Assembly (NCBI GenBank): GCA_002687015.1
Contig: NYZB01000153.1
Coordinates: 1-32,652 of the forward strand
Reading direction: 5' to 3'
Source: Deltaproteobacteria bacterium
GTDB taxonomy: Bacteria; Myxococcota_A; UBA9160; UBA6930
Length of the DNA: 32,652 nucleotides
The notes beneath the pieces are model-generated. The model did no database searches and was not told where the DNA came from. It saw only the letters and a program-made list of their open reading frames with translations. Position 1 is the first letter of the stretch; each line of letters opens with the position of its first letter. A program made the translations under genes and the position numbers. Below are positions 14,363 to 15,454 of this stretch, piece after piece.

Positions 14363-15454
14363 ATGAGCCAGCACCTCGTAGCGACCGAGCCGACGAGCAC
14401 GGGCCTCGACACCGCCTGGGCGGGAATCGCGGCAGCGGGTAGCTGGTTCTCCGGCACCGAGCGGATTGCGATCGCGGAGCAGACTCGCGCGGCCCGCGCT
14501 TGCGGGCTCTGCGTTGAACGAAGAGCCGCCCTTTCTCCCTATTCGGTCTCCGGCCAGCACGAGGGGCAGGGGCCCCTCTCGGTGCCGGCGGTCGACGCCG
14601 TCCACCGAATCAGCAGCGATCCGGGCCGACTGAGCGAGAAGTGGTACGCCGAGGCCCTCGCCAGCGGGCTCCTCCCCGAGGAGGTCGTCGAGATCACCGG
14701 GGTGGTCGGCGTCGTCACCATCGCGGACTCCCTGGCCCTGGCGTTGGCCCAGGACCCGCGGCCCTTGCCGCAACCCGAGGCGGGCGAGCCGAGCCGTGCG
14801 CGGGGGCCGGGCGCCGCCGTCGACGAGCGGGCCTGGGTGCCCATCGTGGACCCGGAGCGGGCCGAGGGCGAGTTGAAGATGGTCTACGACTGGGCCGCTA
14901 GCGGGCCGGGCTTCGTCTTCAACGTCGCGCGCGCATTGACCTCCGTGCCCGAGGCGCTGCGAGGGTTCTTCTCCGCATTCACCCCCAACTACGGCACCCA
15001 CGGCCCCGTGGGCCCCGGCGGGCTGAACCGCTCCCAGGTCGAGCTGCTGGCCTCCGCCACCTCGGCCCACAACGACTGCTTCTACTGAACGATCTCCCAT
15101 GCGGGGCTGCTCCGGGCGAGCAGCGAGGGGGAAGCCGAGGAGATCGACGTGCGGGCCGTCACCGGAGCCGCGGAGGAGCCGGACGGCGGTGTGCCCCACG
15201 GCGCACTGCTCCGCCGCTTCGCTGTCGCAGTCCTGGATGGCGGCCAGGGTCTCGAAGACGTGCGGTCGACCTGCCTGGCGACGCTGGGAGAGAGCGCGAC
15301 GATCCAGGCAGCCTCGGTCGTTGCGAGCTTCGACGGGATCAATCGCGTCGCGGATGCGACCGGCATCCGGCTCGACCCGGAGACGGTGGCGGCCGGCGGA
15401 GACCATCTCACCAAGGAGCTCGGCCTGGGCCACCTCGCCAGCGCCCGGAGCTGA
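14363..15454 (+). CDS. Predicted selenoprotein: two-domain carboxymuconolactone decarboxylase/AhpD-like protein, Sec at codon 242 (TGA 15086-15088)
   Basis: RBS GAGGAG before ATG 14363. The N-terminal ORF ends ..LNRSQVELLASATSAHNDCFY then TGA; the same frame continues TISHAGLLR...SVVASFDGINRVADATGIRLDPE... to TGA 15452. Active site fits E-x11-CxxU-x3-H. Confidence 0.85.
15106..15124 (+). promoter_or_regulatory. Candidate bacterial SECIS-like hairpin downstream of the in-frame TGA
   Basis: GCTGCTC-CGGGC-GAGCAGC: perfect 7-bp stem, 5-nt loop containing GGG, loop begins 24 nt after the TGA. Confidence 0.65.

Follow-up and report, generated by a model that had tools for sequence, protein, structure and literature searches.

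A predicted SECIS element in an AhpD-related selenoprotein gene of a deltaproteobacterium

The stretch of DNA analysed here (the window: 32,652 nucleotides, contig NYZB01000153.1 of a Deltaproteobacteria bacterium) contains a forward-strand reading frame with a TGA at 15086-15088 and a short hairpin shortly after it. Is this TGA a stop codon or a codon for selenocysteine (Sec), and does the hairpin act as the SECIS element of the mRNA? An earlier note, made from the window's sequence, had described the hairpin as SECIS-like and its place after the TGA as correct. Comparison with related genes leads us to a probability of about 0.96 that the mRNA encodes a selenoprotein and has its SECIS element in the hairpin at 15106-15124.

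The gene and its in-frame UGA

Under the standard code the reading frame ends at 15088 after 241 amino acids. With TGA read as Sec, the coding sequence runs from 14363 to 15451 on the forward strand, Sec is residue 242, and the stop codon is the terminal TGA at 15452-15454. The resulting protein of 363 amino acids (gene, 14363-15454) matches NCBIfam family NF041238 (AhpD_rel_CFYUT, alkylhydroperoxidase-related (seleno)protein) over its full length with 366.6 bits and an E value of 1.4e-109; the family cut-off is 175 bits. The protein also has a Pfam CMD match, and the family profile matches the solved AhpD or peroxidase-related structures 6k40, 2prr, and 2oyo. The redox motif C-F-Y-U-T (CxxU; residues 239-243, 15077-15091, forward strand) can be read directly from the sequence, and its Cys and Sec columns are invariant in the protein alignment. 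The AhpD-fold protein is probably a thiol-dependent peroxidase or a disulfide-exchange enzyme. The appropriate annotation is a selenoprotein of 363 amino acids, not a truncated frame of 241. Its upstream neighbour on the same strand (13433-14212) is a short-chain dehydrogenase gene; a sulfotransferase-family gene (15475-17487) and a zinc-type alcohol dehydrogenase gene (17494-18594) follow on the opposite strand.

Relatives of the gene were collected from the same class. Across 91 genomes of the class, every match above the NF041238 cut-off has exactly one in-frame TGA. The phylum sample outside the class gave a single weak match, and neither the viral contigs nor the plasmids that were scanned contained a relative. 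Our comparison set consists of 94 distinct downstream sequences, the window's included, aligned on the TGA, which occupies the same column in all 94. Two orthologues have Cys in place of Sec: one from Marinomonas sp. MED121 (323.6 bits against NF041238, motif CFYCT), and one from an Acidimicrobiales metagenome-assembled genome, which scores 126.5 bits over a partial match, under the family cut-off.

These data bear on an alternative in which translation really ends at the TGA and what follows is a separate or decayed frame. The end of the standard-code frame at 15088 would agree with a stop, as would our failure to find a tRNA-Sec gene in the organism's own assembly, but the protein alignment continues past the TGA for about 120 more conserved residues, the TGA is kept in 94 distinct sequences, and the Marinomonas orthologue, with Cys, reads straight through the position. 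The genome also encodes the Sec machinery, with matches to SelB (315 bits), SelA (524 bits), and SelD (260 bits) all over their cut-offs. We consider a real stop extremely unlikely, and take the UGA to be a selenocysteine codon.

The own assembly is 82% complete, and its candidates for tRNA-Sec were rejected as tRNA-Ser, tRNA-Leu, tRNA-Arg, or tRNA-Gly. All four genomes of the same genus contain a tRNA-Sec gene (67-71 bits; two confirmed by ARAGORN). Given that the 2.2-kb tRNA-Sec region of one sister genome has no real counterpart in the own assembly either, the missing tRNA-Sec is likely to reflect an assembly gap.

The genome contains a second full-length NF041238 selenoprotein gene, a paralogue on contig C241 (11673-11720). 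A search of the own genome with model R1 returned the window gene and this paralogue only; two more places with E values of 0.5-0.7 were disregarded. Several related genomes (L031, L044, L077, L079) carry a pair of neighbouring, diverged NF041238 selenoprotein genes in opposite orientation. One further relative (L148, G049:C62:273138-274154) appears as two separate matches, the downstream one containing a TAG, and is probably a decayed copy.

The hairpin in the window

The hairpin has the sequence GCTGCTC-CGGGC-GAGCAGC. Its 5' arm lies at 15106-15112, its apical loop at 15113-15117, and its 3' arm at 15118-15124, all on the forward strand, exactly where the earlier note had placed them. Direct reading also bears out the spacing of 24 nt between the TGA and the loop (15089-15112) and the early G of the loop, which is the second base of CGGGC. 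Folding of 15086-15135 with RNAfold gives a minimum free energy structure of -19.4 kcal/mol that contains the 7-bp stem together with a lower helix (15093-15098 with 15127-15132). The lower helix was left out of the element because only one of its pairs is conserved among relatives. A search of the whole window with Rfam returned nothing at gathering score, and a match near the hairpin site was dismissed as a chance match.

How much is such a hairpin worth by itself? The window is GC-rich, and its forward strand contains 10 perfect hairpins with a 7-bp stem and a 5-nt loop. Counting both strands, the window has 552 TGA triplets, of which 86 (15.6%) have a hairpin that passes the published rules for bacterial SECIS elements (bSECIS) at -7.5 kcal/mol or lower; for 5.1% of the triplets such a hairpin equals or exceeds the present one in stability. 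Compared with dinucleotide shuffles, the fold of 15086-15135 has a z-score of -0.71, and 43 of 200 shuffles fold as well; a 121-nt fold favours other pairings. Synonymous recoding of this one gene gives p = 0.14. The earlier note had presented the hairpin as evidence independent of the protein-level argument. In view of the pass rate of 15.6% and the z-score of -0.71, it has little worth as such without the relatives, and we dropped thermodynamic z-scores as evidence, as they fail to set the hairpin apart from chance. The hairpin does exist, but from this sequence alone it is not far from chance; it is far beyond chance because it is conserved across relatives.

Conservation of the hairpin in related genes

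The position of the hairpin is nearly fixed. In 92 of the 94 sequences the best bSECIS-type hairpin has its loop at an offset of 24 nt and a loop length of 5 nt, and in 79 of 94 its energy is -7.5 kcal/mol or lower. The loop reads CG[G/T]G followed by any base in 91 sequences and GGTCT in the other three. Pairing was assessed in 93 sequences that are distinct over the first 48 nt. The seven pairs are formed in 97.4% of cells, which exceeds all 500 shuffles (mean, 91.4%); versions of the hairpin slid along the alignment reach 28-56%. Cells changed on both sides number 27, compared with 6.6 in the shuffles, none of which (0/500) reaches 27. RNAalifold recovered the inner six of the seven pairs unprompted.

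Covariation is concentrated in the pair 15107:15123, which is C-G in 68 of the 94 sequences, A-U in 23, U-A in one, and unpaired in two; the neighbouring pair is U-G or U-A. Both main versions occur within one genome: the paralogue on contig C241 has the A-U hairpin GATGCTC-CGGGC-GAGCATC, where the window gene has GCTGCTC and GAGCAGC. Because the stem spans codons, the residues at Sec+7 and Sec+12 are coupled. Leu at Sec+7 accompanies Ser, Gly, or Asn at Sec+12, and Met accompanies Ile or Val (23 of 25); Fisher's test gives p = 6e-20, a value that ignores common descent. The covariation covers about 3-6 independent events. On the tree there are 4 changes on the 5' side and 3 on the 3' side, and the supported pairs are 2 concordant and 0 discordant, which alone is not significant. 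The expectation that the stem would be conserved and would covary in Sec-containing relatives is thus borne out for the stem as a whole and for one covarying pair, with few independent events behind the latter.

The codons beneath the hairpin and the loop are stronger evidence than the covariation of the stem. When all 352 codon columns of the gene are compared with their synonymous background, the six that deviate furthest are Sec+9, +11, +7, +10, +8, and +6, columns that cover the hairpin together with its edge on the 5' side. Counts at Sec+7 to Sec+12 were compared with those expected from codon usage elsewhere in the same genes. The Leu codon under the hairpin is CTC in 94 of 94 sequences (42 expected). 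The Arg codon of the loop is CGG or CGT in 91 of 91 (31 expected), and the usual CGC never occurs (46.5 expected). Ala is encoded by GCG in 65 of 65 cases and Ser by AGC or AGT in 89 of 89. On a protein tree built with the hairpin columns left out, the third loop position has changed from G to T or back no fewer than 25 times, with C and A never seen there. The G[G/U] rule for bSECIS loops is thereby recovered. Judged by these patterns, the hairpin is conserved as RNA rather than as protein.

The principal rival denies the RNA any function: a GC-rich genome that encodes a conserved LLRASS-type helix would produce the hairpin incidentally. The pass rate of TGA triplets in the window, the z-score, and the single-gene recoding test are all compatible with such a by-product. 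A conserved helix would not account for the fixed position in 92 of 94 sequences, nor for a synonymous freeze that is confined to the codons beneath the hairpin and excludes CGC at the loop. The hairpin is also absent from AhpD-type proteins of this class that have no Sec and from the orthologous positions of the two Cys orthologues, as a Sec-specific signal would predict (n = 2, one of them the Acidimicrobiales sequence below the cut-off). We therefore regard a functionless by-product as very unlikely.

With the hairpin read as a SECIS element, we slightly favour the view that it dictates protein sequence in this class: the combinations Leu...(Ser/Gly) and Met...(Ile/Val) would switch jointly only for the sake of RNA pairing, and the loop would fix the Arg codon as CGG or CGT. 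If so, the clade-wide core of the element would be a clean natural data set on what SelB reads. Its roughly 94 natural variants reveal which positions are fixed (the C-G-[G/U] of the loop and the inner GCUC/GAGC of the stem) and which tolerate paired substitution.

Function and comparison with known SECIS elements

Established bacterial Sec biology suggests how the element would work. With the ribosome at the UGA, SelB-GTP-Sec-tRNA(Sec) would bind the C-G-[G/U] loop atop the stem, and the complex would deliver Sec to the UGA. An AhpD-fold protein with a CxxU redox site would result.

Structures downstream of a stop codon can stimulate readthrough in other systems, and the hairpin might accordingly drive ordinary UGA readthrough with a near-cognate amino acid, or have another role in the mRNA, instead of acting through SelB. 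Several observations speak against this. The spacing and the C-G-[G/U] loop fit the bSECIS model (PMC13188914), the Cys of the Marinomonas orthologue aligns with the UGA, as expected for Sec, and SelA, SelB, and SelD are present in the genome; no terminator-like site was found in 14200-15600. A SelB-independent role thus appears scarcely credible, and a SECIS element is the reading we retain. It is built on what was observed in the sequences: the hairpin, its position at 24 nt, its conservation at the RNA level, its agreement with the bSECIS rules, the alignment of the UGA with Cys, and the three Sec proteins.

The bSECIS model specifies a loop of 3-9 nt, a stem of 4-16 bp, a spacing of 16-37 nt, a minimum free energy of -7.5 kcal/mol or lower, and a G as first or second base of the loop, most often in the form G[G/U] (PMC13188914). 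The earlier note was right that the hairpin fits this model: with a 5-nt loop, a 7-bp stem, C-G-[G/U], 24 nt, and -10.9 kcal/mol, it differs from the consensus in no defining feature. What sets this clade apart is an unusually rigid core, GCUC-CGK-GN-GAGC.

Both the family and its SECIS have already been reported. A 2026 review describes NF041238 as an AhpD-related protein with the motif CxxU, identical to "hypothetical protein 1" of a 2005 Sargasso Sea paper (PMC13188914), and a predicted SECIS for this protein is mentioned in the legend to Figure 3 of the 2005 study (PMC1088965). The window protein matches the family over its full length and shares CFYUT with it; we found no difference in this comparison of family match and motif. 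As far as sequence comparison can tell, the element is thus almost certainly a true bacterial SECIS of the ordinary type, in a selenoprotein family already on record, and the signal is of a familiar kind, not a new one.

Smaller Sec-type AhpD/CMD proteins of the same class (CFYUTQSH, CFYUTTSH, CHYUTDGH) have other perfect hairpins after the UGA, namely CACGCAGA-GTT-TCTGCGTG and TCCTGCA-GGC-TGCAGGA. As in the window, the loop, GUU or GGC, starts with G[U/G] and lies downstream of CFYU or CHYU; unlike in the window, the loop has 3 nt and an offset of 17 nt (L149, L150, L152) or 26 nt (L151, L154), and the sequence is another. By position these hairpins are not the same element as the window's, suggesting that SECIS elements arose separately in the small relatives, with loops that likewise open with G[G/U].

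In the SECIS of Escherichia coli fdhF, a short stem after the UGA is capped by a small apical loop containing G and G/U, and a bulged U is important for SelB. The window's hairpin resembles it in the small G-G/U apical loop and in the short stem 3' of the UGA, and differs from it in that its 7-bp stem has no bulge.
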